This document shows, piece after piece, positions 12,910 through 32,184 of a DNA stretch of 32,184 nucleotides. The DNA lies in assembly GCA_947476075.1 (NCBI GenBank), contig CANJPM010000015.1, positions 1-32,184 of the forward strand, in the 5' to 3' direction. This stretch comes from Beijerinckiaceae bacterium (GTDB lineage Bacteria; Pseudomonadota; Alphaproteobacteria; Rhizobiales; Beijerinckiaceae). Every line of letters starts with the position of its first letter. Position 1 is the first letter of the stretch. The position numbers and the translations under genes were made by a program. The notes under the pieces are model-generated. The model did no database searches. It was not told the DNA's origin and saw only the letters and a list, made by a program, of their open reading frames with translations.

Positions 12910-13655
12910 TTTTGTCTCCTCTAGTGCCGCAAGACCCTCAGGATGACAGCGCAAGCCATTGCTCACAAGGCGGAATAATGGACAGACAGATGCCCGAAAA
13001 CGCGCAAAACCCACAGAAAGAAAGCAGCTTGCCATTCCTCAGGGCAGGATGCCCCTTGCCTCGTCAACAGGCCATGTGCAGCGCTTATGGATGGGCTGCA
13101 ATTCTGGCGGCTGCTCAGGAACGAGGGCATGATTGACATCGGACATCACCCGCGCCGGGAATGATCGACCCCGCAACCCGATCACCAAACTCCACCCGGC
13201 TTTCGCGCGATAAGAAGGGCTTCCGCAAGGCTTCGAGCCGTTCCTCGCACGAGTCGTTATGCTCACCTGATTTTTGGGCGTCCATCCGCATTTCAACCGG
13301 AAATGTGTCTTCTGCTGTTTAAGGTGACATTATCCCATTCCGTGGAACACTTCGTCGGGGGCGCCCCGCTCTATTTTCATTTGCGACTGCTCATAACCCG
13401 CAGCGGAGCGCAGCCAAGCCCATGCACGATTTTGCCGACTTCATTCGCGTGGCCGTTGCGGGGGCTGAGTGGCGCACAAAGCCAAGTCCGCGTCACCCGA
13501 AAACCTGTGGGGAGGGCCATCCCCAGTGTTTTAGTCCCCATCGAATGACGCATGAACGCTTGAGCGAGATTGAACAGTCGCGCTTTGGATGTATGATGAT
13601 GAAAAATCGCGCGAAGATTCCAATAATACGCGACATTCGAAAGAGTTAGACAGAC
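12910..13655. other. intergenic region, no convincing gene
   Basis: The stretch between the leftward hydrolase and the rightward efflux operon is about 745 bases. Several short open frames cross it on both strands (for example 13039-13296 minus), but none shows a ribosome site together with a recognisable family pattern. The region must hold the promoters of both flanking units; no clear operator for the efflux genes was found. It may contain decayed gene sequence. Confidence 0.5.
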
Positions 13656-18371: not shown

Positions 18372-19201
18372 AGAGTCTGTCCGGAGAGTTCACGCTGGAT
18401 TGCATAGCTTTCGGAGCATGATCCTAATGGAGGCCAAATGCAGGAAGGCGAGCCTCTTTCGGTTCAGGCACTCCCAGTCTTTGGCGAGCCTGCGGCATGC
18501 GAAGGTGCGCTCTACAACCCATCGCTTCGGCAAGACTACGAAGCCCCTCGCCGCATCCGAACGCTTGACGATCTCCACGTTCACCCGCGCCATGATTTTC
18601 TTTATGGCGGCGCGAAACAGCGGCCCCTGATAGCCGCCGTTGGCGTAGAGCTTCAGCAGAAACGGAAACATACCGAACATCGTCGCCATCACCAGCGCGC
18701 CACCGTCGCGGTCCTGAATGTCAGCCGCGTGCACTATTGAATGGATCAGCACGCCTTGCGTGTCGACGAGGATGTGACGCTTCTTGCCCTTGATCTGCTT
18801 GCCAGCGTCGTACCCCGGCGGATCGATCGAAGCCCCCCTTTTTCAGCCCTTTTGACGCTTTGACTGTCGATAACGGCAGCGGTGGGGCTGGCTTCCCGTC
18901 CGATCGTTTCGCGGCATTTCACGTAAAATGCGTAATGGATTCGATTGAGCGTGCCGTCCCAGTCCCACAGATCAAAATAGCCGTGCACGATCGAGCGCGG
19001 AGGCAAGTCTTTCGGAACCGCACGCCACTGGCAGCCCGTGGACAAAACATACATGAGCGCATTCACGACCTCGCGTATGTTCACTGTGCGCTTGTCGCCG
19101 CCGCGTTTGGCGGGAGGAATTAGTGGCTCGACGAGTTGCCATTCCTCATCGGTTAAGTCGCTGGGATAGCGCAGCCCGCCACGGTTGTAACGTCCACGAA
19201 T
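18372..19201 (-). mobile_element. truncated IS5-family insertion sequence
   Basis: The lower-coordinate end at about 18372 begins AGAGTCTGTCCGGAGAG, a terminal sequence familiar from IS5-family (IS427-like) elements. The transposase reads leftward towards it. At the opposite end similarity stops at the presumed transposase start (about 19201), and no inverted copy of the terminal sequence can be found in the following 100 bases. The element has therefore lost that end and should be immobile unless helped in trans. Confidence 0.7.
18390..19201 (-). pseudogene. IS5-family transposase, degenerate
   Basis: A DDE transposase in two frames. The first part (19201 to about 18840) reads RGRYNRGGLRYPSDLTDEEW, then MYVLSTGCQWRAVPKDLPP and AVIDSQSVK, the first catalytic Asp. 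The second part (about 18840 to 18390) includes HSIVHAADIQDRDGG, LYANGGYQG and VVERTFACRRLAKDWE. The frames meet at a minus-strand A5G6 run (18843-18833), which could allow a -1 frameshift as in some IS5-family elements. Three changes argue for decay: the expected ATG is ATT (19201-19199), the second catalytic Asp is Asn (codon at 18641-18639), and four residues (usually WLNR) are missing after VVERTFA. The comparison forms are from general family knowledge. Confidence 0.8.
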
Positions 19202-19633
19202 TTCGAAGCAGCTGATTATGGGGCCAACGAGCTGCTAACGCAGCCGCTTGGATACCGTGGGCGAGTGTAGGTGATGGATGCGATGCTCTCTCCGAGGGCA
19301 CCGCTTGCAATCATGAACTGGCAGAGGCGAGCAGTAAGCCACCAATTACTGCCAGGTTGGTCTGCCAAGAAGCTATATTGCCCGACCGAGCTTCGCCCCT
19401 CTTGTCCCAGAAGTTTAGGGCGATAATCCCCGCCACAACGGTGAAGGCGATCAATCCGAATGCAGCGAAGCGAACATAAAGACCCAAGATGAGCAACAAG
19501 CCACCAGCGCTTTGGACCAGCGTGCCAGCGGCGAATGCAACGGCGGGCATCGGAACGCCTCGAGCTGACATGGCTACTGTGGCAGTACCTCTGATCATGA
19601 ATCGCTTGACGGCAGTTACTACGTACAAGGTGC

Positions 19634-20598
19634 CTAGGTGTTTAGTCCCGAAGAGAAGCGGTACGGATCCAACTTGAATCTTGTAGGCTCTTTTGTCCAC
19701 ATTTTTGCGATGTATTCGTAGGGCGTGAGCCCGTGCAGGGTCTTCAGCCGCCGCGCATGGTTGTATGCGTCTACGAATAGCCGAAGGTGTTGCCTGAGTT
19801 GGTCGTGGCTGTCGTAGTAGTAGCGTTTGACAGTCGCTTCTTTGAGGGTGCGGTTCATACGCTCCACCTGGCCGTTGGTCCATGGGTGGTTGGGCTTGGT
19901 TAGCCGATGTTCAATATCGTTCTCATGGCATATCTGATCGAAGCGGAGAACTTTGTAACGGGCTGTCCATCCGTTCCTGTTGCGTGGCAGGTCGGCGAAC
20001 TGGATGCCGTTGTCAGTCAGGATAGTATGCTGCCGATAAGGAACAGCCTCGGTCAGCGCTTCGAGAAACGACACCGCCGTTGGCCGTTCAGCCTGCTCGT
20101 GGAATTGCACGTAGGCCAACTTTGAGGTGCGGTCAATCGCTAAAAAAGGAAGAGCTTTCCTTCTTTGGTGCGAACCTCGGCGATGTCGATGTGGAAGTCG
20201 CCAATCAGATAGACCTTGAATCTTTGCTTTGCAGGTTTGTCGCCTTCTATCTCGGGCAGGCGGATGATGCCGTGGCACTGAAGGCAGCGATGAAGGGATG
20301 ACCGGGAGAGGTTGTGGATCGTCGATTGCAGCGCATAGAGGCAATCATCGAGCGGCAGCAGCGTATGCCGCCCGAACGCGACGATCATCGTCTCTTCTTC
20401 GACGGACAAGACGGTTGAACGCACCTCGATGGGTCCCATCGGCAGATCGACGACGAAGCTGCGTTTGCGCCACTTCTGAACCGTCGTTGGGCTAATGCCA
20501 TGGCGCTTGGCCAAAGCCCTTATACTCTCTTCACTCCGCTGTACTGCTCGACGGACCGCCTCTGTCGTGCGGGCGCTCCCGTGTAAAACGTGCCCCAT
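19634..20598 (-). pseudogene. IS481-family transposase (integrase core), one frameshift
   Basis: The N-terminal part starts MGHVLHGSARTTEAVRRAVQ with a helix-turn-helix ending GISPTTVQKWRKRSF; the frame is open to 20634 but 20598 fits the family start. The rve integrase core has DDE residues in HIDIAEV (first Asp), ILTDNGIQF (second Asp) and GQVERMNRTLKEATV (Glu), all intact. The frame breaks at the A6 run at 20142-20147 (T6 in the gene): one frame stops at TAG (20142-20140), while the other continues LAIDRTSKLAYVQFHEQ. Either a one-base indel has inactivated it or the T run allows a -1 slip. The final codon ACC-TAG extends past the element, so the stop codon is supplied by the duplicated CTAG target. 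Confidence 0.85.
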
Positions 20599-20756: not shown

Positions 20757-21524
20757 TCAAGCAGGAGTAGCCCGCCGGATTAACTTGGCAATCTGCAGTC
20801 GCTTGGCGCCGAACTGCTCTGTAGATTTGGTGTTGACTTGGTCTCGCGTGCCCGTGATCCCAACGGTGATTTCTGCAAGCACCACTGTGGGGCTGCGGGA
20901 CAAAACGACAACACGATCGGAAAGATACACCGCTTCATCGATATCATGAGTCACTATAACAACGGTTATACCGAACCGCCGTCTAATGTCGGCAACAAGA
21001 TCTTCAAGGTCGGAGCGGGTTTGAGCATCGACAGACGCAAAGGGCTCGTCCATAAGAAGCAGAGCTGGCCGGTAAGCCAGTGCTCGTGCAATCGCCACTC
21101 GCTGCTGCATGCCTCCAGATAGCTGCCAAGGGTAGTGCTTGCCCTTACCGTCCAAACCCACTGCATCGAGGCTCTCGGCAACGCGTTGCGCGCGATCGCT
21201 GGCAGACATTTCCTGGTACCGTAACGGCAGTTCGACGTTGTGTTCCACAGTGGACCACGGGTAAAGCGACCGGCTATATTCCTGGAAGACCATCGTTAAG
21301 CCGCGAGGAACACCGCGAATGGGCTCTCCGCGGAGCGTGAGAGTTCCCGACGAAGGCGTTAACAGGCCGGCCAGAATCTTCAGGAGCGTCGTCTTTCCGC
21401 AACCAGACGGTCCAACGATCGACACGAACTCGCCCTCGCTTACCTCAAACGAAACATCCTCAGTAACGACATTGCCACGAGAGTACTCGTGATGGAGGTT
21501 TTTAATTAACAGCAAGACTCCCAT
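20757..21524 (-). CDS. ABC transporter ATP-binding protein, NitT/TauT type
   Basis: Cytoplasmic ATPase of 255 residues, of the nitrate/sulfonate/taurine importer family. Walker A GPSGCGKTT is at about 38-46, the Q-loop MVFQEYSRSLYPWSTVEHNVELPL shows the LYPW pattern of this family, the signature is LSGGMQQR, Walker B LLLMDEPFASVDAQTR and the switch histidine lies in VTHDIDEAVYLSDRV. It is the last gene of the leftward operon, six bases after a permease gene, and would energise the two permeases upstream. No binding protein gene lies in this operon. Confidence 0.93.
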   Translation of the reverse strand: MGVLLLIKNLHHEYSRGNVVTEDVSFEVSEGEFVSIVGPSGCGKTTLLKILAGLLTPSSGTLTLRGEPIRGVPRGLTMVFQEYSRSLYPWSTVEHNVELPLRYQEMSASDRAQRVAESLDAVGLDGKGKHYPWQLSGGMQQRVAIARALAYRPALLLMDEPFASVDAQTRSDLEDLVADIRRRFGITVVIVTHDIDEAVYLSDRVVVLSRSPTVVLAEITVGITGTRDQVNTKSTEQFGAKRLQIAKLIRRATPA

Positions 21525-21530
21525 CCTCTA

Positions 21531-22340
21531 TCACGGTGAGCGGCCCTTGGATCCGGCGTGCCACTTGAGCGCACGTGCCTCGATAGCGACGAAAACAGCG
21601 TTCAATCCCGATCCAATCAAAGCCAACAGCAGAATTCCGCTCCAGACATCGGTCAAGAGGAACATCATTTGCGCTGTCTGAATGCTGTGGCCAATTCCGT
21701 TGGTGCTCGCCACCAACTCGCTGACAACCATGAGAATGACGGCCAGCGACAGGGAAACACGTAAGCCAGCAAAGAGCTTGGGTAAAGAAGCAGGAACCAC
21801 TATCCTAAGGAAGCGAGCCAGGGGGGGCAGTCGGAGGACTTTCGCTGTTGCGATCTTAACCTCATCAACCGTCCGCGCAGCCTCGATCGTGTTGAGAAGG
21901 ACCGGCCAGAGCGACCCAAAGGCAATGAGAGCCACTCGCATACTGGTGCCTGTTCCAAATAGAACAATGAACACGGGTACGAGGGCAGGTCCCGGAATTG
22001 CCCTCAAAAACTGCAGTACGGGGTCGATAAAGTCCGAAACCGTCTTATAGCCTCCAATCAGAAAGCCTGCTCCAATTCCGACGATTCCGCCGATCATCCA
22101 ACCCAAGAGAAGACGTCCAACACTTGGGAGGATGTCGGTGAAAACAACATCTCCTAAGAACATTTGCCGCTGGTCGGCTGAAGTCCACAGTTCGAGCGAT
22201 CGCGTTGCAATTGCTGTAGGCGTAGGAAAGTAGATGGAGGCATAATAAGATGTGGAAAGTTGCCATACAGCCAGAAGCCCGAGTAGCGGGACTGCGGCGA
22301 GCAGCAGGTTTCTCCCGTGGATCGCGCTCGCGTGCTTCAA
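21531..22340 (-). CDS. ABC transporter permease, NitT/TauT (SsuC/TauC) type
   Basis: Inner-membrane permease of 269 residues with about six helices. Family marks are SYYASIYFPTPTAIATRSLELW near the N-terminus, FLRAIPGPALVPVFIVLFGTGTSMRV in the middle, and the coupling loop AKVLRLPPLARFLRIVVPASLPKLFAGLRVSLSLA. The C-terminus ends with FVAIEARALKWH. It lies 12 bases after another permease of the same family and six before the ATPase, so the transporter may use a permease heterodimer rather than the usual homodimer. Confidence 0.92.
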   Translation of the reverse strand: MKHASAIHGRNLLLAAVPLLGLLAVWQLSTSYYASIYFPTPTAIATRSLELWTSADQRQMFLGDVVFTDILPSVGRLLLGWMIGGIVGIGAGFLIGGYKTVSDFIDPVLQFLRAIPGPALVPVFIVLFGTGTSMRVALIAFGSLWPVLLNTIEAARTVDEVKIATAKVLRLPPLARFLRIVVPASLPKLFAGLRVSLSLAVILMVVSELVASTNGIGHSIQTAQMMFLLTDVWSGILLLALIGSGLNAVFVAIEARALKWHAGSKGRSP

Positions 22341-22352
22341 GAGATTGATCTC

Positions 22353-23117
22353 CTAGGCCAAGGTGTCTTGATCGCTTCCCAAACGCCACCGAAAATAACG
22401 AGAGTCGATGACGTTAAGAACTGAATTGGCGCAGACGCCTAGCATCCCAGCAATGGCACTACCCGCTAGGACTGAAACGGCGTTTCCGCCATTTGCTGAG
22501 GCGAACAGGATATAAGATCCTATACCAGCGTCGGAGGACGCTAACAGTTCTGTGCCAATCACGACAATCAGCGCAATAGATGCCGAAATACGAATGCCAT
22601 TGAATATGAACGGCCCTGAACTTGGAACGATCACTCTACGGATAACGGCAGTTCTGTGCAGACCGAGCGTTTCTGCCGTGTGAACTCCCACTTGATCTAC
22701 GTCATGCACGCCGTAGATCGTGTTGTAAAGAATTGGCCATGCACTTGCCCACGCCGCTAGGATGACCTTCATCATTACACCCTGGCCCCAGAGCATGATG
22801 CCCAGAGGGATAAGCGCGACCGCTGGAATGGGGCGCATGAATTCCACTATCGGAGAAGCCATTCTGTAAGACGTGTCTGACAATCCGAGAAGAATGCCAA
22901 GCGGAACGCTGATGCAGATGGCGACACCGAGCGCCAACGTCCAGGTGGCGACTGTCGCGGCTAGATGTCGAAGAAACGAAGGGTCAACCAGAAGCTCTCC
23001 CATTCGAAGTAGCACATCGCTAGCGTAAGGCAAGTAGATCCGCGGCACAACCTCAAGGCGCGTGAGCGCCTCTAGGGTTAGTACGAAGAGAAGCACACCG
23101 GCGCATTTTCTAACCAT
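22353..23117 (-). CDS. ABC transporter permease, NitT/TauT (SsuC/TauC) type
   Basis: Inner-membrane permease of 254 residues. The core shows EFMRPIPAVALIPLGIMLWGQGVMMKV and a coupling loop TAETLGLHRTAVIRRVIVPSSGPFIFNGIRISASIALIVV, both typical of the family. The N-terminus begins directly with the first helix, and the helix count is the usual six or so. It follows the second deacetylase-like gene after 87 bases, the widest gap in this operon. Together with the next permease and ATPase it forms an importer lacking its own receptor in the operon; the receptor at 27891 or the binding-protein-like product at 30113 could serve it. Confidence 0.9.
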   Translation of the reverse strand: MVRKCAGVLLFVLTLEALTRLEVVPRIYLPYASDVLLRMGELLVDPSFLRHLAATVATWTLALGVAICISVPLGILLGLSDTSYRMASPIVEFMRPIPAVALIPLGIMLWGQGVMMKVILAAWASAWPILYNTIYGVHDVDQVGVHTAETLGLHRTAVIRRVIVPSSGPFIFNGIRISASIALIVVIGTELLASSDAGIGSYILFASANGGNAVSVLAGSAIAGMLGVCANSVLNVIDSRYFRWRLGSDQDTLA

Positions 23118-23204
23118 TGCGATACCAAAAACAGTCTTTCCTAGGATGCGGTTTCGTGTGCTAGCACGTCGTGGCAGAGCGGAAATTAGATCTATCTGTC
23201 TCTG

Positions 23205-24131
23205 CTATTGTTCGTACGGCGAATGCTTCGCAAAGGCCTGGGCTACCTCCCCGGCCGTTGCAAACCAGGCATTGTCAGAACCCACGAGATGCTGCAAAAT
23301 TTCATCAAGACCCTTGATCCGGTGAGGGTAGCCCATCACCCAGGGCGACACCGAGAGCGAGAGCATCTTAGCACTGCCATGTGCAGTTGCTTCCTGACTT
23401 AGATGTTCGTAGGCTTGTAAGACCTGCGCTACATAGCTCGCGACTGAGTGCGTGTGATGCACCATGCAAAAGCGGTCAGATAGCTCAACAAGACTCGGGA
23501 GGGAGACCACTGGCCCGGAGCGCGTCTTAATCCAATAAGGTGCGTCATCGTTCGCCCAGTCGAAAATATACTTGAAGCCTTGCTCACATATAAGATCCAA
23601 GGTGCGGTTAGACTCGAGTTGGCCTGGTGAAGCCCACCCGTGAACCGGTGATGCAGCCATCGATGATAGAATAGTGCGGGTGGAAACTATGAGATCGCGC
23701 TCTTCCTCCTCGCTAAGCAGCCCGTGATGAGGTCGTCCCATGTCAAAGCCGCCGGCGGCGATTTCCCAGCCGCATTTCTGAATTTCTTCAATGACCCGTC
23801 CATAAATCAGCGCCGCATTTCCTTGAACTTGCGCAGTGGCTTTCACACCATAAGCTTGAAGCACGCGCATTAGCCTGAAAATGCCAAGCCGTAAGCCGTA
23901 GTCCCTATTGCTGTAGCTCCAAAAGTCTGGGTAGCCACGGTCTAGACCACCAGCCGGACGCACCGGGGGCGCGTGCGAATCAAGTGGGAAGAATTCCACC
24001 GGAATGTTGATGCACACTGCAACGCGGCCGCGCGGCCACTGGATAGTGCCGTCCGTTGACGAACGGAAATCAAACCACTCATGATCGAGACCGGGGCCTC
24101 GCCGGGGGTAATCCAAGCGTCCGTTCGTCAT
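23205..24131 (-). CDS. polysaccharide deacetylase-family hydrolase (PuuE/cyclic-imide-hydrolase-like), paralogue 2
   Basis: A 308-residue predicted cytoplasmic hydrolase related to the NodB-fold enzymes that open cyclic amides (PuuE allantoinase, cyclic imide hydrolase). Visible are RVAVCINIPVEFFPLD, a YSNRDYGLRLGIFRLMRVL motif matching the SYRDYGNRVG-WR signature of the group, GWASPGQLESNRTLDLICEQGFKYIFDW, and a C-terminal LSVSPWVMGYPHRIKGLDEILQH. Where its neighbour has the metal-type SHG motif, this protein reads AAGGFDMGRPHHG, so the usual first histidine is replaced. The frame is open to 24392, but the ATG at 24131 lies just after the upstream gene and begins a sensible N-terminus. It is 26 bases downstream of paralogue 1. 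Confidence 0.85.
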   Translation of the reverse strand: MTNGRLDYPRRGPGLDHEWFDFRSSTDGTIQWPRGRVAVCINIPVEFFPLDSHAPPVRPAGGLDRGYPDFWSYSNRDYGLRLGIFRLMRVLQAYGVKATAQVQGNAALIYGRVIEEIQKCGWEIAAGGFDMGRPHHGLLSEEEERDLIVSTRTILSSMAASPVHGWASPGQLESNRTLDLICEQGFKYIFDWANDDAPYWIKTRSGPVVSLPSLVELSDRFCMVHHTHSVASYVAQVLQAYEHLSQEATAHGSAKMLSLSVSPWVMGYPHRIKGLDEILQHLVGSDNAWFATAGEVAQAFAKHSPYEQ

Positions 24132-24157
24132 TTGCTGTTTCCCAGTTCGGCGCGTGC

Positions 24158-25033
24158 TTAAGAATAGTAGTTGTCGTAGTACCAATCGGCGATTTCGCCC
24201 GCAGTGGCATGCCACACGCCTTCGTGAGACGTGACGTGTCTCAGAACATCGTACAATGCTTGAATCCGATGCGGTTGACCGACTACATATGGATGTAGCG
24301 GCATGCAAAGGACCATAGGATTGTCCTGACCTTCGAGATAAAGTTGGTCGAAGGCCGCTTTCATCATGTCTGCCCAATCGCCGGCCGAGCATCCGCGAAA
24401 GCCCATTACGCGGATGTCATTGATTTCGGTGGAATAGGGGACCGCGATCAGCTTACCCGATGCGGAGCGTATCGGAACAGGTTGGTCGTCAGGAACAACG
24501 TCAATTGTGTATGTTATCCCAAACTCGGGCAAAAGGTCGAGAAACGTCTCTGTTGCACTGATCGCGGGAGCCAGCCACCCACGTACCGGCTGCCCAGAAA
24601 AATTGCTGATGGTTTCTACGCTGTCTTTGATCACGGCTCTCACTTCATCGTCTGTCATCTCAGAGATGATGCGTGTGTTATAAATGCCGTGGCTGAACAG
24701 CTCCCATTTCGCGTCGACGCACGCTTGCACCACATGGGGTAAGTGGTCCACCATTGCTGCGTTCAGGGACACGCTCGCGCGCAGGCCAAAACGTTGGAGG
24801 GCTTCTAAGACACGCCAGACCCCAACCCGGTTTCCGTAGTCCCGCTGCGAGTAGCTCAAGATGTCTGGTGCTGGGCGCGGCCAAATCGGGCGACCTTGGT
24901 TTTCCGGCGGCCGCAGCTCGTAGAACTCAATGTTTGGCGCAATCCAGAACGCCACCCGCGATCCATTCGGCATCTCGAGCCGCGGCCGGTCTATAAGTGG
25001 GAGATATGAGTAGCGGTCCACCTTCGAAATCAT
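24158..25033 (-). CDS. polysaccharide deacetylase-family hydrolase (PuuE/cyclic-imide-hydrolase-like), paralogue 1
   Basis: A 291-residue predicted hydrolase of the NodB-like fold, lacking a signal peptide. The sequence has RVAFWIAPNIEFYELRPP, the group signature SYSQRDYGNRVGVWRVLEAL, WELFSHGIYNTR with the Ser-His-Gly metal/catalytic motif, VRGWLAPAISATETFLDLLPEFGITYTIDVVPDDQP and MPLHPYVVGQPHRIQALYDVL. This pattern fits enzymes such as PuuE-type allantoinase and cyclic imide hydrolase better than chitin deacetylases. The frame starts at a GTG (25039); the ATG two codons later (25033) is chosen, without strong ribosome-site support for either. It heads the leftward operon and diverges from the amidohydrolase gene over a short control region. 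Confidence 0.88.
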   Translation of the reverse strand: MISKVDRYSYLPLIDRPRLEMPNGSRVAFWIAPNIEFYELRPPENQGRPIWPRPAPDILSYSQRDYGNRVGVWRVLEALQRFGLRASVSLNAAMVDHLPHVVQACVDAKWELFSHGIYNTRIISEMTDDEVRAVIKDSVETISNFSGQPVRGWLAPAISATETFLDLLPEFGITYTIDVVPDDQPVPIRSASGKLIAVPYSTEINDIRVMGFRGCSAGDWADMMKAAFDQLYLEGQDNPMVLCMPLHPYVVGQPHRIQALYDVLRHVTSHEGVWHATAGEIADWYYDNYYS

Positions 25034-25058
25034 GGCCACTCGATTCTGTTCTGCCGGA

Positions 25059-25092
25059 TTGACAAGATACGACTGTGATGTATCACTGTCGT
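25059..25092 (+). promoter_or_regulatory. promoter with 24-bp palindromic operator in the divergent gap
   Basis: TTGACA at 25059-25064 is a perfect -35 hexamer and TATCAC at 25081-25086, after 16 bases, matches four of six -10 positions. An imperfect palindrome covers 25069-25092: ACGACTGTGAT, centre GT, ATCACTGTCGT, with only one mismatched pair in 11. It spans the spacer and the -10 of the rightward promoter, an ideal repressor position, and could also control the leftward operon. The regulator is not encoded in the window and its family is not clear. Confidence 0.7.
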
Positions 25093-25129
25093 TTATTGGT
25101 TGTCCATCAACTTTTAAGAGGGTTCAGTA

Positions 25130-26638
25130 GTGAACAGCAAGCGCTCATTTGTTCTGCGCGGCGGTCACGTCATCGATGACGTGACCGGTTTCAACCGTGT
25201 TGCGGATGTCCATGTGGAAGACGGCAAGATAGCCTTTGTGGGCAGCCGCGCTGTTGATCCTGCCACTGAGGTTATCAACGTCTCTGGAAATTACGTGTCG
25301 GCCGGCTGGGTTGACATACACGTCCACGCCTATGGCACGCTAGGGTTCTCCAACCCGGATACCATTGGCGTCCATCAGGGCGTGACGTCATTCGTAGACG
25401 CTGGGGGACCTGGAATTGGCGTTCTTGATCAGTTCATGGACTTGCGCGACAGGCTTGAGACGACGCTATATGCGGGGGCTTTCATCCGCCCCATGGGCTT
25501 GCTTGGGCTCAATTTCATCGAAGGCAACGTAAGAACACTTGGTAATGTCCCGATAACCCAGTGGGTAGATTTCGCCAAGCAAAACAAAGATATGCTCCGC
25601 TATATCAAATGTAATGCTATGGGGGATTACGGCCCCGGCACCCTCCGTTTGACAAAGGGACTGGCAGAGATCTTGGGCCTGCCGCTATACATGCACATCG
25701 GCGAATTCCAGCTGCAAAATCCGGAACATTTGCTTGCGCCTGAAGCCTTCAAAATCGCTGAGGCAGGAGATATGATTACCCATCTTTATCATGGTAATCT
25801 CGGTCAAGTTATTGATGAGAACGGCAAAGTTCTGAAAGTCGTAAGGGAAGCACAGAAGCGCGGCGTCCTGTTTGATCTTGGCTTCGGGGGCTATAACTTC
25901 TCGTGGGACGTGGCCGAGAAGGCGTTTGCGCAGGGCCTGATTCCCCACACGATTAGTTCTGACCTTCAACAATTCAATGTAGTGCGACCCGTAATGTCGC
26001 TGGCTAATGTCATGGGAGCGATGCTCAAGCTCGGCATGTCGTTGCCAGATGTCGTAGCGCGAGTGACCTCCACAGCTGCACAAGCAATTTCGATAAGAGA
26101 CCGCGCAGGCACCCTGGAAGCTGGAAAACCAGCCGATATCACGGTCTTCAAGGTTGAAGACGGGGAATTCCTGATGCTCGACTGCTACACGAAAACCCGT
26201 GTTGCTAACCGCCGCGTCGTCCCGATCCTGACCTTTAAGGCCGGTAAGCGCTTTGAAGCTAACATGACCCTCGGGCAAGACGAGTCTAACTGGTTCCTTC
26301 AGATAGCTGAGGACCATGTGCCCAGCGCCGCGCAGGTGCTTTCTTCGGGACAGCGCGAGTTTCTGAGCGCCCTTGTCGAGGCTCTCGGCCCAGCAACTTG
26401 GGACCTTTCATCGGCCGAACGGCTAGACATCGAGCGGGCTCTCGAGTTGCAGGACCTGTTCCACGCGACGCGAATTAAGCAAGATCTCTCGCTGCACGAA
26501 GCTCTTGAAGCACTCTACGCTTGCTTCCTAGACAACCAATTCACCATGCAGGTCGGACTGCTTCTTGTTCGCCTGGAGCCTGATTTCGTGAAATCGCGGT
26601 TCCGAGAAGTTGCAGGGGCGCGTCCGCTCGCAGCTTGA
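25130..26638 (+). CDS. metal-dependent amidohydrolase (dihydroorotase/D-aminoacylase-like) with C-terminal extension
   Basis: A 502-residue cytoplasmic hydrolase of the amidohydrolase superfamily. The metal-site residues are visible: His64 and His66 in GWVDIHVHAYG, Lys160 in YIKCNAMG as the likely carboxylated bridge, His189 in YMHIGE, His218 in DMITHLYHG and Asp278 in HTISSDLQ. The closest named relatives are the deacetylase/D-aminoacylase-like group, so an N-acyl or cyclic amide substrate is expected. The core ends near residue 376 (RVVPILTFKAGKRFEAN); about 120 mostly helical residues follow, which I do not recognise. Translation starts at GTG 25130, with GAGGG eight bases upstream. It is the first gene of the rightward operon. 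Confidence 0.9.
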   Translation: MNSKRSFVLRGGHVIDDVTGFNRVADVHVEDGKIAFVGSRAVDPATEVINVSGNYVSAGWVDIHVHAYGTLGFSNPDTIGVHQGVTSFVDAGGPGIGVLDQFMDLRDRLETTLYAGAFIRPMGLLGLNFIEGNVRTLGNVPITQWVDFAKQNKDMLRYIKCNAMGDYGPGTLRLTKGLAEILGLPLYMHIGEFQLQNPEHLLAPEAFKIAEAGDMITHLYHGNLGQVIDENGKVLKVVREAQKRGVLFDLGFGGYNFSWDVAEKAFAQGLIPHTISSDLQQFNVVRPVMSLANVMGAMLKLGMSLPDVVARVTSTAAQAISIRDRAGTLEAGKPADITVFKVEDGEFLMLDCYTKTRVANRRVVPILTFKAGKRFEANMTLGQDESNWFLQIAEDHVPSAAQVLSSGQREFLSALVEALGPATWDLSSAERLDIERALELQDLFHATRIKQDLSLHEALEALYACFLDNQFTMQVGLLLVRLEPDFVKSRFREVAGARPLAA

Positions 26639-26660
26639 AGTGCAATAGAGGAGAGTTCCT

Positions 26661-27011
26661 ATGAGCGAACAGTCCTGGTCGCAGCTCCCGGGCGTAAGCG
26701 CGGAGACCAACAAGTTTCCGGCACGTAGCAGCATCGCCGGAGAAGGAATCATAGTTTTCAAGACAAAGACGGGCTATCGGGGTGTTCAAAGGGCATGCCC
26801 CCATATGAAAGCAACAATGATGGCTGGTGAACTCACGGCTAACGACACGATGGTTCGTTGTCCACTCCACGTGTTCACCTTCCGTTTATCCGATGGCCGA
26901 GGGGTAAACTGCCCAGGCTTTGAGATTAAAGTCTACGAAGTGAAGGAAGAGGGCGGTCAGCTATACGGAAGAAGTGCAAATGAACTATCACTTACTCCAG
27001 GTGCACGATAA
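26661..27011 (+). CDS. Rieske [2Fe-2S] ferredoxin-like protein
   Basis: A 116-residue soluble Rieske-type protein. The cluster ligands are in CPHMKA (Cys-Pro-His) and CPLHVFTF (Cys-Pro-Leu-His), separated by 18 residues, slightly more than the 15-17 usual in Rieske ferredoxins. The rest (VFKTKTGYRGVQRACPH, and after the second site FRLSDGRGVNCPGFEIKVYEV) fits the NirD/toluene-dioxygenase-ferredoxin fold. It would normally pass electrons to an oxygenase, or be an oxygenase accessory part, but neither an oxygenase nor a reductase gene is in the window. A good ribosome site (GGAGAG) precedes the ATG. The stop overlaps the next start by one base, so the protein is made together with the transporter. 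Confidence 0.88.
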   Translation: MSEQSWSQLPGVSAETNKFPARSSIAGEGIIVFKTKTGYRGVQRACPHMKATMMAGELTANDTMVRCPLHVFTFRLSDGRGVNCPGFEIKVYEVKEEGGQLYGRSANELSLTPGAR

Positions 27012-27841
27012 TGGTCGATTTGGCCGCTCTCGATAGGCCGGCGGCGAAGGGGAGGGCTCGCCCTCGCTCGATGAGGCGTTATTACGTTCTGATGACGCAG
27101 CTCAGCCTGCTGCTCACGCTGATCTTGGGATGGCAGTGGGGGGTATCTGAGGCGCAGCTGCCCTATTTTAGCCGCCCTACGTTGGTCGCGGCGAAACTTA
27201 TGGAGCTTATAAGTCAGCCGACCATCTACCGGCACATTTGGGTCACTCTCCAAGAAATCTTGATTGGTTACTTTCTTGGCGCTGTCTTCGGGCTAGTGCT
27301 CGGCTTTGTGCTGGGTCGATCACAGTTCCTTTCGGATGCGCTCCAGCCTTTCATTATTGGCTTATATAGTATCCCGAAGATCGCACTTGCGCCGGTTTTC
27401 ATTGTGTGGCTCGGATTAGGAATGTCGTCCAAAGTAGCAGTGGTTTTTCTAGCTAGCTTCTTTCTGGTTTTCTTCAATACCTACTCTGGACTGCGCGCAG
27501 TTAACGAGGAGCTGGTAAGGCTCGCTCGTTTGATGGGAGCTTCATGGCCCCAGACGATCTCGCGCGTTATTTTGCCCGCAGCCGCGGATCAGATCTTCCT
27601 TGGGCTCAAAACCGCGGTGCCATACGCGGTGATTGGCGCAGTGATCGGTGAATACATAGGATCCAACGAGGGCCTCGGGTTTTTTATTTTGTACGCATCT
27701 CAGACTTATGATGCCCCGGCGCTGTTCGCGGGTATCATTCTGCTGGTCGGGATAGTTTTTGCGGCGAACCTCGGCTTGAGCCATTTGGAAGGAAAGTTGA
27801 TCCGCTGGAAGACGAGCTCTTCGCAAGCGGTTCAAATATGA
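27011..27841 (+). CDS. ABC transporter permease, NitT/TauT (SsuC/TauC) type
   Basis: Inner-membrane permease of 276 residues. A basic N-terminus (RPAAKGRARPRSMRRYY) leads to the first helix. The family core reads LYSIPKIALAPVFIVWLGLG and the coupling loop LVRLARLMGASWPQTISRVILPAAADQIFLGLKTA. The C-terminus has ANLGLSHLEGKLIRWK. The start ATG shares a base with the Rieske stop (TAATG). Together with the receptor at 27891 and ATPase at 28955 it makes a complete importer, the second of this type in the locus. Confidence 0.92.
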   Translation: MVDLAALDRPAAKGRARPRSMRRYYVLMTQLSLLLTLILGWQWGVSEAQLPYFSRPTLVAAKLMELISQPTIYRHIWVTLQEILIGYFLGAVFGLVLGFVLGRSQFLSDALQPFIIGLYSIPKIALAPVFIVWLGLGMSSKVAVVFLASFFLVFFNTYSGLRAVNEELVRLARLMGASWPQTISRVILPAAADQIFLGLKTAVPYAVIGAVIGEYIGSNEGLGFFILYASQTYDAPALFAGIILLVGIVFAANLGLSHLEGKLIRWKTSSSQAVQI

Positions 27842-27890
27842 GACGCATCGGGAAGCGATCGCGCGCTTCGTCTAGCACTGGAGAATTGTC

Positions 27891-28910
27891 ATGATTGGAC
27901 GTCGATCCTTCTGCCAAGGGGCCGCTGCGGCCACACTAAGCCCACTGCTTCTTCAGCAGGCTTCTGCTCAGCAGCCCATAACTCTGAAGGGCGTCTATTC
28001 GGCGCCTGGTCTGTCATACGCCGCTATTTACATCGCCGATGCGACTGGGCTTTGGGCGAAGAACGGCATCGCCGCCGAGATGCGCCAAGTGCAAGGCGGA
28101 CCACTCGCTATGGTCGCCCTTACAAACAATGAGGCACGGTTCGCTGGAGTGGCTTCCACCGATCCAGTCATCGCCTATGACAAAGGCATCAAGAGTCTTA
28201 CGGTTGGCGCGTTTACCGGGGGGCTCGCAATGCAGATTGCGGCTCGTAAGGACTGGATGTCAAAGACGGGTGTCTCTGGCGCAAGCAGCTTGGAGGAGAA
28301 GCTGAAGGCGCTCCGCGGCGCGCGAATTGGCGCGTCGACGATCGGCGGCGGGCCGGCGCAGTATACCAGGTACCTTGCTCGATCGGTCGGCATAGACACC
28401 GATAAGGATCTCCGCATCTTGGCCGTTGGCCTTGGAGCTGCAAGAATTGCGGCTTTGAGGACAAACCAGGTGGATGTAATCGTTGGGAGCGCTCCCGATG
28501 CAGATCAGGTCGAGCTGGAAGGTTTCGCCGAGCTGTTCTTGGACTGCGCTCATGAAGTGCCTATCTTCAAAGAATTCCCCTACACAGTAGCGACGGTGAC
28601 GGCCTCGTTCGCTGAACAGCAGCCGGAAACAGTGCGGCGAATCATGGCGGCGCTCGGTCAAGCGAACGACATGTTCACGACCAACTTTGGCCAGGTGGTC
28701 GATATTCTGAGGCCGCAGTTCCAGAATATCCCCATCAAAGCACTAGAACGCGCGCTTGAGCGTGATCGGGACACTTATCCGCAGGCGTGTCGAATGACTC
28801 AAACGATGTGGGAGAACAATATTAAAGTGAGCATCGATATCAAAATGATTGGCAAGCCTATCGCTACCGAAGAAGGTGTTCTTTGGACCAACAAGTTCAT
28901 TGCGTCATAG
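27891..28910 (+). CDS. ABC transporter substrate-binding protein, NMT1/SsuA-like, probable Tat substrate
   Basis: Periplasmic receptor of 339 residues for the NitT/TauT importer. The N-terminus MIGRRSFCQGAAAATLSPLL carries a twin-arginine motif (RRSF) followed by a modest hydrophobic stretch and an ASAQQ cleavage region, so export by the Tat pathway is likely. The mature part reads GVYSAPGLSYAAIYIADATGLWAKNGIAAEM, the typical opening of the NMT1/SsuA family, then LKALRGARIGASTIGGGPAQYTRYLARSVGI and ALRTNQVDVIVGSAPDADQ. The ligand is unknown; the family binds sulfonates, nitrate, pyrimidine precursors, aromatic acids and others. A GGAGA ribosome site precedes the ATG. Confidence 0.91.
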   Translation: MIGRRSFCQGAAAATLSPLLLQQASAQQPITLKGVYSAPGLSYAAIYIADATGLWAKNGIAAEMRQVQGGPLAMVALTNNEARFAGVASTDPVIAYDKGIKSLTVGAFTGGLAMQIAARKDWMSKTGVSGASSLEEKLKALRGARIGASTIGGGPAQYTRYLARSVGIDTDKDLRILAVGLGAARIAALRTNQVDVIVGSAPDADQVELEGFAELFLDCAHEVPIFKEFPYTVATVTASFAEQQPETVRRIMAALGQANDMFTTNFGQVVDILRPQFQNIPIKALERALERDRDTYPQACRMTQTMWENNIKVSIDIKMIGKPIATEEGVLWTNKFIAS

Positions 28911-28954
28911 GATCTTTCCGATCCTCACCATCTTAGTTTGAAGAGGCCACAATT

Positions 28955-29800
28955 ATGACTGCCATTCTGGGAGTCTCACCACCCGTTTATCACGAAGTTA
29001 AGAAGCCGCCCCCGGCCATCGATTTTCGGGACGTGAAACTCACGTTTGCGGGCCAAACGGACGGTACCTTAGTCCTGGGCGGCATCAGCTTCTCGGTTCG
29101 TCCAGGCGAAATCATGAGCGTCGTGGGCCCTTCGGGGTGCGGAAAGACAACACTTTTACGATTGGCGTCGGGCCTGGTTCCACCTTCATCAGGCCAAGTA
29201 TGGTGTAACGGTCGAAGAGTCGACGCTCTCAACACGGAAGTTGGCTTCGTTACCCAGGACAGCAACCTGTTCCCCTGGCTGACGGCGCTAGGCAACGTAG
29301 AGTTTCCGCTGGCGGTGCGCGGGGTCCCGGACAAGGAACGGCGCGAGCGCGCCATGCATTGGTTGGAGCTGGTGGGGTTGAGTGGATTTGAAAATCACTA
29401 CCCCGCTCAGCTGTCAGGCGGCATGCAGAAGCGTGTATCGATTATACGAACGCTAGTGTACGAGCCTTCCGTTGTGCTGTTAGACGAACCGTTCGGAGCG
29501 CTCGATGCTCAGACTCGAATGCATCTGCACCACGAGTTGCTCAGCCTCTGGCAGCATCAGAAGAGCACAATGCTCTTCATCACTCACGATCTCGTTGAGG
29601 CTATTACTCTATCAGACACGGTAGTGGTCATGACCCGCGGTCCGGGACTTGTAAAGGAGATTTACGACGTGCCGCTTGCACGACCGCGGAACGTCTTTGA
29701 AATATATTTGGAGCCTGGGTTCGATAAGGCGTACGCTTCCCTCTGGAAGCACTTCAAACATGAGGTTCAAGAGGTGCTCCTTCCAGGCGGTGCACTGTAG
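28955..29800 (+). CDS. ABC transporter ATP-binding protein, NitT/TauT type
   Basis: Cytoplasmic ATPase of 281 residues. Walker A GPSGCGKTT (about 62-70), Q-loop TQDSNLFPWLTALGNVEFPLAVRGV with the FPWLT pattern of the family, signature LSGGMQKR, Walker B VVLLDEPFGALDAQTR and switch histidine in ITHDLVEAITLSD are all present. The signature has lysine where most members have glutamine or arginine (MQKR). The C-terminal 40 residues extend past the core. An AAGAGG ribosome site lies upstream. It is the last gene of the rightward operon and is distinct from the ATPase at 20757, so each transporter set has its own. Confidence 0.92.
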   Translation: MTAILGVSPPVYHEVKKPPPAIDFRDVKLTFAGQTDGTLVLGGISFSVRPGEIMSVVGPSGCGKTTLLRLASGLVPPSSGQVWCNGRRVDALNTEVGFVTQDSNLFPWLTALGNVEFPLAVRGVPDKERRERAMHWLELVGLSGFENHYPAQLSGGMQKRVSIIRTLVYEPSVVLLDEPFGALDAQTRMHLHHELLSLWQHQKSTMLFITHDLVEAITLSDTVVVMTRGPGLVKEIYDVPLARPRNVFEIYLEPGFDKAYASLWKHFKHEVQEVLLPGGAL

Positions 29801-30112
29801 CGCCGTTCAGGTCTCCGTACTCGCCAACGGCACGATTAAGGTCGTTACGGCGACACTGCGCGTGTTCCACCGCGCCACCATAATGAAGCTCGGCGCAACG
29901 CCGGCTCACCTCTCAGGCTGAGTACCTAACGGCTTGCCGGCTGATACTATTAAGTCGCTAGATGGGATACGGGGCAACAGGCGTTCGCTCTGTATCCGTC
30001 CCCGCGTCGGCAACTGCATTCCACGGCGCAGTTACAAAGTACAGGCAACCAAGGCCGAGCAGATAAGACAGCGTTTCAAGGTCAATCATGATATCACTCC
30101 TCGCAGGTCTTA
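29801..30112. other. intergenic region between converging genes, no gene seen
   Basis: About 310 bases separate the end of the rightward operon from the end of the leftward binding-protein-like gene. A frame continues from the preceding ATPase region to 29921 without family character. No strong terminator with a T run is visible; only a short CGGCG-CAA-CGCCG hairpin near 29890 was noticed. Confidence 0.5.
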
Positions 30113-31105
30113 CTACGTCTTAGACACGTCAAAGACAGACGGATGGAAGATTTCTTCAGGCGTCAGAATTCTCGTTGCCAGGCCTTGTTCATACGAGTAG
30201 CGGGCAAGCGTTTGAATTTCGTGCATGCTCTCGGCTATGCCATAGCGCCAGAGATCCTGTCCCGCTGCCAGCCTTTCATCAACGTTGAGCTCCGGCCAAG
30301 GCAGCGTGACCTTTTTTGCGGACATCGCGCGCATATCTGCGATAGCTAATGCTTTTGCTTGAGAGAAGGCCTTATAAACGGTACCCGGAAGCCACGGATA
30401 CCGGGCAACCAGCTCCTTCTTGATTCCCACGAGGTGCATGATTGGGAAGTTGCGAGTTCGGCTGTAATAATCAGCTTCAACGTCTCGATAGTTTGGGAAC
30501 ATCAGTCCGATGTTCGGTGCGCCCTCGACGTAGCAAGCCATTTCACGCGCACTAAAAACGGCGTCGAGTTCACCATCGATTAGCATTTGGTTCAGCGTCG
30601 AGGTGGACGATATAGGCTGGAGGTCGACGCTAGGAGGCAGCTGAAGAGGAGTACGCTCGTCGCGGCCGGGCTCATCCTGGCCGCCGGTCCTCCAGTGAAG
30701 ATCACTGGGTTCAACACCAAAATCTTCTTTGAAAATTCCCCGCATCCACACATTAGCCGTCTGCTGGTACTCGGGCAATCCTACAAGCTTGCCTTTCAAG
30801 TCACTGGGCTTGTTGATCCCCCGATCCGTTCGAATGTAAATGGCCGAGTGACGGAAATGACGTGACACGAATGCCGGGATCGCTACGTAAGGGCAAGCAT
30901 CTCTAGACGTCGCCATCAAAAAGCTATTGAACGACAACTCAGCAACATCGAACTCGTGGTATCGAAACGCTCGAAAAAAGAGCTCTTCAGGCGGTAGCGG
31001 AAGGTAAGTCACTTCGCATCCGTCGACCTGGACGCGCCCGGTCATGATTGGGCGGGTGCGATCGTACTCGTCACACGCGATTGTGAGCGGCACCAGGTGA
31101 GGCAT
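30113..31105 (-). CDS. 4,5-dihydroxyphthalate decarboxylase-like / ABC substrate-binding-like protein
   Basis: A 330-residue protein of the family that includes 4,5-dihydroxyphthalate decarboxylase (Pht5) and related periplasmic-binding-fold proteins. Recognisable are IACDEYDRTRPIMTGRV near the start, the RYHEFDVAELSFNSFL motif, PAFVSRHFRHSAIYI, DLKGKLVGLPEYQQTANVWMRGI and the end region LTPEEIFHPSVFDVS. No signal peptide is seen, so a cytoplasmic enzyme is more likely than a periplasmic receptor, but annotation of this family is divided. The frame is open to 31168; the ATG at 31105 has GGAG six bases upstream and starts MPHLVPLTIA, so it is preferred. It diverges from the amidase gene. Confidence 0.85.
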   Translation of the reverse strand: MPHLVPLTIACDEYDRTRPIMTGRVQVDGCEVTYLPLPPEELFFRAFRYHEFDVAELSFNSFLMATSRDACPYVAIPAFVSRHFRHSAIYIRTDRGINKPSDLKGKLVGLPEYQQTANVWMRGIFKEDFGVEPSDLHWRTGGQDEPGRDERTPLQLPPSVDLQPISSTSTLNQMLIDGELDAVFSAREMACYVEGAPNIGLMFPNYRDVEADYYSRTRNFPIMHLVGIKKELVARYPWLPGTVYKAFSQAKALAIADMRAMSAKKVTLPWPELNVDERLAAGQDLWRYGIAESMHEIQTLARYSYEQGLATRILTPEEIFHPSVFDVSKT

Positions 31106-31131
31106 GTTGACTCCGTAACTCGATTTATGAT

Positions 31132-31146
31132 TGTGAGATTTCACTG
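31132..31146. promoter_or_regulatory. possible second operator, GTGA-N4-TCAC type
   Basis: TGTGAGATTTCACTG at 31132-31146 lies in the gap between the divergent decarboxylase-like and amidase genes. It matches 12 of 15 bases of TGTGATGTATCACTG inside the palindrome at 25069-25092, with the same GTGA/TCAC half-sites and spacing. A shared regulator is inferred. The core is short, so chance occurrence is possible. Confidence 0.4.
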
Positions 31147-31195
31147 CTGGGGGCTTGTAGTCAAGCATTTTACAGCTCGAGTCTAAAGGCGTTGG

Positions 31196-31868
31196 ATGCT
31201 TAACACAAAACCCACACTTCAGGAATTGTCGTTACGACTCCGTGAGGGAACAACGTCGAGCCGAGGGCTTGTCGAGGATTGCCTCGCCCGCTTGGACGCC
31301 GACGATCGAGCATACTTGTATGTTGATACGCGCGGAGCTCGTGAAGCCGCTGACGCGATGGATCGGTTACGGCAAGTCAAGGGAGTCCCATCGGAATTCG
31401 CTGGAATCCCGATGGCGGTGAAGGATCTTTTCGACATTCAGGGGGCAAGTCACAGGCGCTGGATCGCGCGTTCTTTCGGGACAGATGCCTGCTTCCTCAG
31501 ATGCCGCCACGGTGTCGCGGCTGCGCAGGCAGGGCTTCATAATTCTTGGTCGCACGAACATGACCGAGTTTGCCTTCTCGGGGCTTGGTTTGAACCCGCA
31601 TTTTGGCTCTCCTTCCAATCAATTGGGCGACGGAAAGCGCATTGTCGGAGGGTCATCGTCGGGTGCGGCGGTGGCGGTAGCGCAGGGAACAGCTCACACG
31701 GGGCTTGGAACTGACACTGGAGGTTCATGCCGTATCCCAGCAGCATTCAACAGACTCGTAGGCTTTAAGCCCACCGCGCACCGTGTGCCGCTCAGCGGCA
31801 CCATCCCGCTCTCTCCCAGTCTGGATTCCGTCGGTTCGATTGCGCGGTTGTCAATGGCGGAGGCAAAA
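31196..31868 (+). pseudogene. amidase-signature family hydrolase, frameshifted and truncated by IS21-type insertion
   Basis: The N-terminal part (31196 to about 31445) reads LQELSLRLREGTTSSRGLVEDCL and GIPMAVKDLFDIQG, with catalytic Lys76. An extra G in the G5 run at 31441-31445 throws the frame. The next frame continues QVTGAGSRVLSGQMPASSDA, then GRTNMTEFAFSGLGLNPHFGSPSN, IVGGSSSGAAVAVAQG with the cis-serine and TDTGGSCRIPAAFNRLVGFKPT with the nucleophile serine. All three triad residues (Ser-cisSer-Lys) exist, but in two frames. The gene is then cut at about 31868, where insertion-sequence DNA begins, so the C-terminal half is missing. Such enzymes hydrolyse aliphatic or aromatic amides; this copy should be inactive. 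Confidence 0.85.
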
Positions 31869-31911
31869 TGTGCCAGATGGCGGCGTAAAAGTGTACCAGT
31901 CCGGTTTAGAG

Positions 31912-31932
31912 AAAAGGGCTGCATGAGCCCTT
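31912..31932 (-). terminator. putative intrinsic terminator of the istB gene
   Basis: On the minus strand AAGGGCT, loop CATGC, AGCCCTT and then further T residues form a 7-base-pair hairpin (arms 31914-31920 and 31926-31932) with a T tail, downstream of the istB stop. A second, larger inverted repeat of 14 perfect base pairs (31946-31959 with 31975-31988) lies between the stop and this hairpin. Confidence 0.65.
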
Positions 31933-31997
31933 GTGAGTTGCGCTGCCGCGCGCATTGAGACGTGGGAAGCGCGGCTCAATGCGCGCGGTGGCGATTT

Positions 31998-32184
31998 CTA
32001 TTTCGGTTCGGCGTCTCCCTGGCTGATTGTCTTTGTGGATGCACTTGGCGCGTGGTTTTGCGGCGCGTGAGTTTGTCGGCGTTGCGCCTTCTTGCTGGTC
32101 GCGAGCCGGAAGCTTTCGCCGTTCATCTCCAGGATATGAACGTGATGGGTGAGGCGGTCGAGGAGCGCGCCGGTGAGCCGTTCC
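31998..32184 (-). CDS. istB: IS21-family ATP-binding helper protein IstB (C-terminus only)
   Basis: The minus strand is open from the window edge to a TAG at 31998. It encodes ERLTGALLDRLTHHVHILEM, then NGESFRLATSKKAQRR, and a polar tail ending GDAEPK. The LTGALLDRLTHH-HILE-NGESFRL pattern is the C-terminus of IstB, the AAA+ partner of the IS21 transposase. The Walker motifs and the transposase gene istA would lie beyond the window. The downstream border of the element at 31869 is within a broken amidase gene. Confidence 0.85.
   Translation of the reverse strand, partial: ERLTGALLDRLTHHVHILEMNGESFRLATSKKAQRRQTHAPQNHAPSASTKTISQGDAEPK

Follow-up and report, generated by a model that had tools for sequence, protein, structure and literature searches.

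The window analysed here, 32,184 nucleotides long, is one entire contig (CANJPM010000015.1; G000:C15 in our numbering) from the 3.87-Mb draft genome, in 357 contigs, of a bacterium of the Beijerinckiaceae, and it carries between position 20757 and its right-hand end a cluster of transport and hydrolase genes. A sequence-only reading had described this cluster as a locus for the import and stepwise opening of a compound with cyclic amide, cyclic imide or N-acyl bonds. All the genes named in that reading are open reading frames, and family profile searches place each of them in the family, and at the position, that it had been given:

20757–21524, minus strand: ATPase1, ATPase of a NitT/TauT-type ATP-binding cassette (ABC) importer (PF00005, E 7.4e-34)
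21531–22340, minus strand: perm1, ABC importer permease (PF00528, E 4.5e-19)
22353–23117, minus strand: perm2, ABC importer permease (PF00528, E 6.4e-17)
23205–24131, minus strand: Deac2, PuuE-like, apparently the degenerate partner of Deac1 (PF01522, E 3.7e-7)
24158–25039, minus strand: Deac1, PuuE-like with intact motifs, putative cyclic-imide hydrolase (PF01522, E 2e-9; PuuE structure 3cl6, E 2.1e-28)
25130–26638, plus strand: AmdH, amidohydrolase with an EF_0837-like core (residues 1–380) and an all-helical C-terminal tail (residues 394–495 or so)
26661–27011, plus strand: Rieske [2Fe-2S] ferredoxin, directly after AmdH (PF00355, E 2.4e-10; CxH..CxxH motif)
27011–27841, plus strand: perm3, ABC importer permease (PF00528, E 7.6e-33)
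27891–28910, plus strand: periplasmic receptor, SsuA/NMT1-like (PF13379, E 8.8e-17)
28955–29800, plus strand: ATPase2, ABC importer ATPase (PF00005, E 1.4e-33)
30113–31168, minus strand: Pht5L, homologue of Pht5-type dihydroxyphthalate decarboxylases (solved structure 9jp7, E 2.2e-99)
31196–31958, plus strand: AS-family amidase, frameshifted and truncated (PF01425, E 3.9e-40 on the second piece; three frames read separately)
32001–32183, minus strand: end of an IS21 helper ATPase (IstB) in place of the amidase tail, at the contig end (PF01695, E 3.9e-8)

The minus-strand and plus-strand operons are divergent, their starts lying 90 bases apart between Deac1 and AmdH, with intra-operon gaps of -1 to 87 bases; a third unit after the plus operon is the divergent pair of the Pht5-like gene (minus) and the amidase (plus). 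The start of Deac2 was set at the ATG at 24131, the mechanical open reading frame beginning upstream at 24392. The amidase is indeed broken, as had been proposed: it is frameshifted and its tail has been replaced by the IS21 helper-ATPase end. As the contig stops at this IS21 end inside the amidase, the locus is incomplete at right. The importer encoded at 20757–23117 (minus) combines two differing permeases with one ATPase and has no receptor gene in its own operon.

A scan of an 84,980-species genome collection for the AmdH pattern returned 11 loci. Seven (L021–L027) match most of AmdH, including the tail, at 48–65% identity, the start of L024 being cut by a contig end; the other four (L028–L031) were set aside as short partial matches of 27 to 69 residues. 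With L044, added from the class sample (genome G256), and the window itself, nine AmdH loci are available, and in every one a Rieske ferredoxin gene lies directly downstream of AmdH, with gaps of -4 to 41 bases. L025–L027 are closely related and have similar neighbours, so that the independent contexts number at most seven. The ordered block AmdH-Rieske-perm3-receptor-ATPase2 is present in three of the nine (the window, L021 and L022, perm3 being 70–71% identical in the latter two). Because of the invariant AmdH-Rieske pairing and the recurrence of this five-gene block, the clustering is beyond chance. The AmdH subfamily is rare: at E 1e-60 or better, it is found in two of 385 genomes of the class (G256 and the window's own genome) and in one of 398 genomes of the phylum (the own genome alone).

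Two relatives, G836 and G837, extend the picture. In G837 the locus (L022) reads GntR regulator, dioxygenase alpha, dioxygenase beta, Gfo/Idh enzyme, Deac1, Deac2, thiamine pyrophosphate (TPP) enzyme, aldehyde dehydrogenase, AmdH, Rieske, perm3, receptor and ATPase2, and further along the contig, on one side, come genes for an HcaD-like ferredoxin reductase, a further ferredoxin, a flavin monooxygenase and an amidase. C171, a contig of 8.2 kb in the window's own genome, encodes a dioxygenase alpha and beta pair, a TPP enzyme, an amidase that is intact and two regulators of the GntR/FCD type. The sequence-only reading had staked its case on such genes keeping company in other genomes, and they do so here: a stretch of about 28 kb in G837 holds homologues of eight of the 12 window genes and five of the six C171 genes (identities to our proteins: alpha 69%, TPP enzyme 59%, Deac1 64%, AmdH 65%, Pht5L 69%, and the amidase 56% to that of C171). 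In this stretch perm1, perm2, ATPase1 and one C171 regulator have no homologue, and the sole counterpart of the broken window amidase is the C171-type amidase. The G836 locus (L021) comprises Pht5L (cut by the contig end), a divergent AmdH, Rieske, perm3, receptor, ATPase2, alpha, beta and Gfo/Idh, together with a second ABC importer and an extra Rieske protein of oxygenase size. The C171 alpha subunit is 65–69% identical to those of G836 and G837. Since G837 unites homologues of both contigs on a single one, C171 can be linked to the window. On the best reading, roughly half of a catabolic cluster is present in the window, and its other half, a Rieske ring-hydroxylating dioxygenase, a Pht4-like dehydrogenase, a TPP enzyme with an aldehyde dehydrogenase and an amidase, is represented on C171 and in G837.

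The core of AmdH scores 320.3 bits against NF006689 (PRK09237 amidohydrolase/deacetylase), below the NCBIfam cut-off of 371 bits, and the residues that we take to be the metal ligands of the amidohydrolase superfamily are invariant in all eight aligned sequences. The whole chain yields a mediocre model (predicted local distance difference test, pLDDT, 67), whose structural matches include the amidohydrolases 8wzy and 2ics. The tail of about 100 residues (window 26270–26635, AmdH residues 381–502) is better modelled alone, with a pLDDT of 81. In a Foldseek search with this model, ranks 1–23 of 74 are class I lysyl-tRNA synthetases (LysRS) or glutamyl-tRNA synthetases (GluRS), aligned over 88–131 columns, the best E value being 0.046 and none reaching 0.001. 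A profile of the tail searched against the PDB also places a class I LysRS first (1irx, residues 419–520 of 523, E 0.11), in a segment that is presumably its anticodon-binding domain. In a local set of 4,496 sequences, half of them reversed decoys and with 30 LysRS genes deliberately added, AmdH itself is followed by two LysRS (E 0.0098 and 0.17; best decoy 1.2), the remaining 28 of the 30 are mixed with or below the decoys, and the reverse profile search did not recover AmdH above decoys. Direct alignment of the tail with the 30 LysRS tails by hhalign gives P 5.7e-4 and a probability of 12%, and no Pfam family matches the tail at E 1. The tail therefore likely shares, to judge from the models, the fold of the C-terminal domain of class I LysRS and GluRS; common ancestry is unproven. 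Ordinary family members lack it: the 19 next-best matches start at residues 2–30 and end by residue 380, and none of the 222 matching records in the plasmid collection covers 80% of AmdH. AmdH represents a distinct amidohydrolase subfamily characterised by the tail and a Rieske partner.

That partner is itself unusual, matching three of 72,556 plasmid records at E 1e-5. The idea that it is merely the ferredoxin of the dioxygenase is weakened because G837 has a separate ferredoxin beside the reductase, closest to AndAb and then to HcaC, and because no ring-hydroxylating dioxygenase was recognised around five of the nine AmdH loci (L023, L025–L027 and L044; DNA read by eye and by BLAST with our alpha). 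L024 has a different, VanA-like Rieske oxygenase (by eye), and G256 encodes a Rieske oxygenase 33% identical to our alpha on the same contig as AmdH, about 38 kb away. A tentative proposal, to which we attach more doubt than belief, is that AmdH and the Rieske protein form a new two-component enzyme, in which a recruited anticodon-binding domain of the aminoacyl-tRNA synthetase type would hold the redox partner, in a redox-gated or redox-assisted hydrolase, or would bind RNA, the whole acting within an undescribed imide-to-catechol pathway with an obligate pair of intact and degenerate imide hydrolases.

Deac1 and Deac2 score 126.7 and 88.4 bits against TIGR03212 (PuuE), both below the NCBIfam cut-off of 424.6 bits. 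Eight annotated plasmid loci, hand-picked from the best 25 listed of 552 matching records (row L096, which has no annotation, was left out), all carry the two genes in tandem; an isochorismatase-type gene lies directly upstream in seven of them (under the label 'cysteine hydrolase' in one), and three have a LeuCD-type dehydratase nearby. In a tree of ten pairs (these eight, that of the window and that of L022), a single branch separates the Deac1 lineage from the Deac2 lineage (support 100/99), and four of the five Deac1 sister pairs are found again among Deac2. The HG-YN motif and a second histidine are kept in all ten Deac1 proteins; in Deac2 the first histidine is kept in four of ten, the second in three and both in one, and both positions are altered in the window. 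The earlier count of 'three or four' hydrolases was thus too high, Deac1 and Deac2 looking like one pair of which one member mostly lacks the conserved histidines. Cyclic imide hydrolases can be PuuE-fold proteins, and the isochorismatase-type and LeuCD-type neighbours fit a sequence from cyclic imide to half-amide to diacid. These patterns suggest that Deac1 as the catalytic and Deac2 as the degenerate subunit form a complex which would open cyclic imides, with a half-amidase acting next. The plasmid cassettes of isochorismatase, Deac1 and Deac2 (L045, L046, L047, L048, L097, L098 and L099, with LeuCD-type genes in L045, L048 and L098) are possibly alkyl-maleimide degradation loci.

Pht5L matches the solved 4,5-dihydroxyphthalate decarboxylase 9jp7 over residues 12–347. 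In a Pht5 tree of 15 rows (that of G836 partial, and with seven of the 16 other matches of the own genome), the window, G836 and G837 sequences form one group (100/100), which joins the Pht5 proteins of two putative phthalate operons, from Polaromonas and Thalassospira, so called by annotation alone (98/96), and stands apart from the seven paralogues of the own genome. By sequence, Pht5L would belong to ring oxidation and decarboxylation, with a predicted decarboxylase role. Both putative phthalate operons (L049 and L050) have a nadC gene (quinolinate phosphoribosyltransferase) in their vicinity. Contigs C7, C37 and C246 of the own genome each carry a Rieske-oxygenase match as well as a Pht5-family match. 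For the Gfo/Idh enzyme of G837, the solved 4,5-dihydroxyphthalate dehydrogenase 7wzd is the second-best match (E 6.8e-89), after the uncharacterised dehydrogenase 3moi; the enzyme is 53% identical to that of G836. The dioxygenase alpha subunit carries a Rieske motif and a facial-triad-like motif; its closest solved structure is naphthalene dioxygenase (2b1x) and the second phthalate 3,4-dioxygenase (9jp5). For alpha, beta and reductase the nearest NCBIfam models are those of Hca (HcaE, Hca beta and HcaD-like), all scores being below the curated cut-offs. The same dioxygenase pair is found in genus g231, divergent from a Pht5-family gene (36–38% identical to Pht5L), in all three species, one of which has a stop inside the alpha gene. 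The TPP enzyme of C171 is a single chain of 580 residues with both TPP domains (PRK08327, 602 bits versus a cut-off of 456). Its homologue adjoins an aldehyde dehydrogenase gene in L022, another occurs on a Comamonas plasmid, and in Thalassospira the neighbourhood of the putative phthalate operon includes an aldehyde dehydrogenase and a TPP-family gene of weaker similarity; the pairing with an aldehyde dehydrogenase suggests that a 2-oxo acid side chain is removed.

Import and the opening of a cyclic amide or imide, as the sequence-only reading had it, are supported by the gene families and their context; its picture of a locus for hydrolysis alone does not hold, because Pht5L belongs by family to ring oxidation and decarboxylation and because a dioxygenase, a TPP enzyme and an intact amidase are found on C171 and within the G837 cluster. 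We consider it an even chance that the cluster imports an aromatic ortho-dicarboxylate masked as an imide or amide, such as a phthalimide-like compound, hydrolyses it, and then dihydroxylates, rearomatises and decarboxylates the product. Uptake would proceed through one or two NitT/TauT-type ABC importers (step 1). The cyclic imide would be opened to a half-amide by Deac1 with its degenerate partner Deac2 (step 2), and the carboxylates would be freed by AmdH, the AS-family amidase or both (step 3), while a 2-oxo acid side chain, if the precursor has one, might be shortened by the TPP enzyme and the aldehyde dehydrogenase. The Rieske dioxygenase alpha and beta subunits, supplied with electrons by a Rieske ferredoxin, would then yield a cis-dihydrodiol (step 4), the Pht4-like Gfo/Idh enzyme would rearomatise it (step 5), and decarboxylation of the dihydroxy-diacid by the Pht5-like enzyme would leave a catechol of the protocatechuate type to enter general ring cleavage (step 6). 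The sequences establish the gene content, its conserved clustering, the families of the proteins of steps 4–6 and the two Deac lineages; we infer the substrate, the order of steps 1–3 and the roles of AmdH and the TPP enzyme. If this pathway is correct, it would supply the genes by which benzo-fused imides, for example imide pesticide or drug residues, are opened biologically and passed to the phthalate/protocatechuate route. Two features stand out as odd: the PuuE-type hydrolase would consist of two subunits, one of them degenerate, and the amidohydrolase is coupled to a Rieske protein and carries a domain resembling one found in tRNA synthetases.

Several points weigh against this interpretation. 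Imide hydrolysis by Deac-type proteins is drawn from their likeness to PuuE and from gene context. C171 is a separate contig of the draft, linked to the window by way of G837. In G837 itself, Pht5L lies about 8 kb past ATPase2 on the other side of the locus, and six open reading frames intervene (EthD/DUF4286-like, AA_synth, an amidohydrolase, two apparent major facilitator superfamily transporters and an acetamidase/formamidase); in G836, the best Deac1 match reaches 43% and is on a different contig. The dioxygenase clade is present in only three of the nine AmdH genomes (the own genome, G836 and G837), so that AmdH and its Rieske partner serve other pathways too. The oxygenase, an alpha-beta enzyme, differs from the classical Pht3 type. 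Pht5-family matches in the own genome number 17, and with 16 of them beyond Pht5L the family is not phthalate-specific. A search of the own draft genome for a Pht4-like gene of the G837 clade turned up none, the best match (43%) lying on contig C149. That contig encodes a separate Pht2/3/4-like set of Gfo/Idh, reductase and Rieske oxygenase (L053, 572–4261), with a Gfo protein that shares 51–56% identity with its counterparts in the putative phthalate operons, and it may be this set that deals with phthalate itself. Beside this set lie an apparent MarR regulator and a P450 (labels by eye).

The alternative that survives best, which we nevertheless consider unlikely, is that a phthalate-type module and an unrelated module for imide or ureide nitrogen salvage stand side by side, with only regulation and DNA neighbourhood in common. 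The plasmid pairs of Deac1 and Deac2 have no such dioxygenases annotated nearby, and g231 has the dioxygenase pair and Pht5-family gene with no Deac homologues within the 20 kb read, both as this arrangement would predict; however, in G837 the alpha, beta, Gfo/Idh, Deac1, Deac2, TPP enzyme and aldehyde dehydrogenase genes are co-directional in one block. Less likely again is catabolism of an N-heteroaromatic compound akin to lumichrome or quinazolinedione, in which the hydrolases would open a pyrimidinedione ring, the TPP enzyme decarboxylate the heteroaryl acid and the Rieske dioxygenase attack the remaining ring, as in the lum system of Nocardioides. A uracil-type ring does include a cyclic imide. 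The lumichrome pathway, in the part of its description consulted, likewise combines amide hydrolases with TPP decarboxylation and a Rieske dioxygenase of four parts (PMC12746152). Against it, no P450, xanthine oxidase or extradiol dioxygenase was recognised by eye, with no family search, among the open reading frames of the window locus, C171 and the G837 stretch; the TPP enzyme is a single chain, unlike LumK/LumL; and neither Pht4 nor Pht5 appears in that part of the lum description (PMC12746152). It is more improbable still that the ring is oxidised first, so that a pyridine-type diacid would be the substrate of the dioxygenase and the hydrolases would act once the ring is cleaved, on products of the N-formyl or maleamate type. 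In known pyridine pathways amide hydrolases do follow ring cleavage. Against this reading, inspection by eye of the window locus, C171 and the G837 stretch revealed no ring-cleaving dioxygenase, and the two intradiol and six LigB-type matches of the own genome sit on other contigs. An auxin-degradation locus of the iad type for indole-3-acetate, to which the dioxygenase alpha and beta subunits, amide-type hydrolases and plausible cyclic amide intermediates might point, is rejected on gene content as highly improbable, since the iadA/iadB markers (indolepyruvate oxidoreductase) are not among the scanned window, C171 and G837 proteins and the consulted passages on iad mention no Pht4, Pht5 or PuuE-like gene (PMC9613470, PMC10374108, PMC12633357).

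The proposed imide-to-catechol route can be compared with several known systems. It shares with the phthalate 4,5-pathway (pht/oph) a Pht4-like dehydrogenase, here in the relatives, a Pht5-like decarboxylase and Rieske oxygenase chemistry, but has an alpha-beta oxygenase in place of the Pht3 type and, in addition, imide/amide hydrolases, a TPP enzyme and ABC importers. The likeness to 3-phenylpropionate dioxygenase (Hca) lies in the best models for alpha, beta and reductase; unlike Hca, our proteins are linked to Pht4/Pht5-type genes. The fold family of PuuE allantoinase is common to Deac1 and Deac2, whereas these are a two-gene pair with one degenerate member, far under the cut-off. AmdH has the core domain and metal-ligand residues of the EF_0837-type amidohydrolases (PRK09237), to which Atu3266 presumably belongs, but differs in its helical tail and Rieske partner. 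Classical PuuE, EF_0837 and HcaE membership was rejected, all scores falling below the curated cut-offs. The closest proven analogue in logic, as far as the consulted part of its description goes, is the lumichrome pathway, where hydrolysis, TPP decarboxylation and Rieske dioxygenation follow in turn with a differing gene set (PMC12746152). Among the open-access papers listed on imides, phthalimide and isoquinoline, judged mostly from titles and the opening of abstracts (in one case 20 of 200) and with subscription papers outside the scope, none describes this gene set, and a literature search touching the tRNA-synthetase-like tail returned nothing related, only one unrelated clinical paper. 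The pathway is of a known kind, but the AmdH-Rieske unit and the Deac pair with its degenerate member are without counterpart in the literature searched.

Remnants of IS5-like and IS3-like transposases lie on the other flank of the locus (18746–20344). The G+C content is about 0.60 across the first 12 kb of the window versus 0.52–0.58 within the locus; its fall starts near 13 kb, ahead of the transposase remnants, so that it supports acquired DNA weakly. About 8 kb off the locus, an isochorismatase-family protein (12142–13035, minus) is weakly like biuret amidohydrolase and RutB. The rest of the contig encodes, between 940 and 11610, a peptide-type ABC importer (SBP_bac_5) followed by a phosphate-type ABC region with PhoU, then an HlyD-type protein (13656–14777) and a protein of 1027 residues (14774–17857) that we take to resemble an RND pump.

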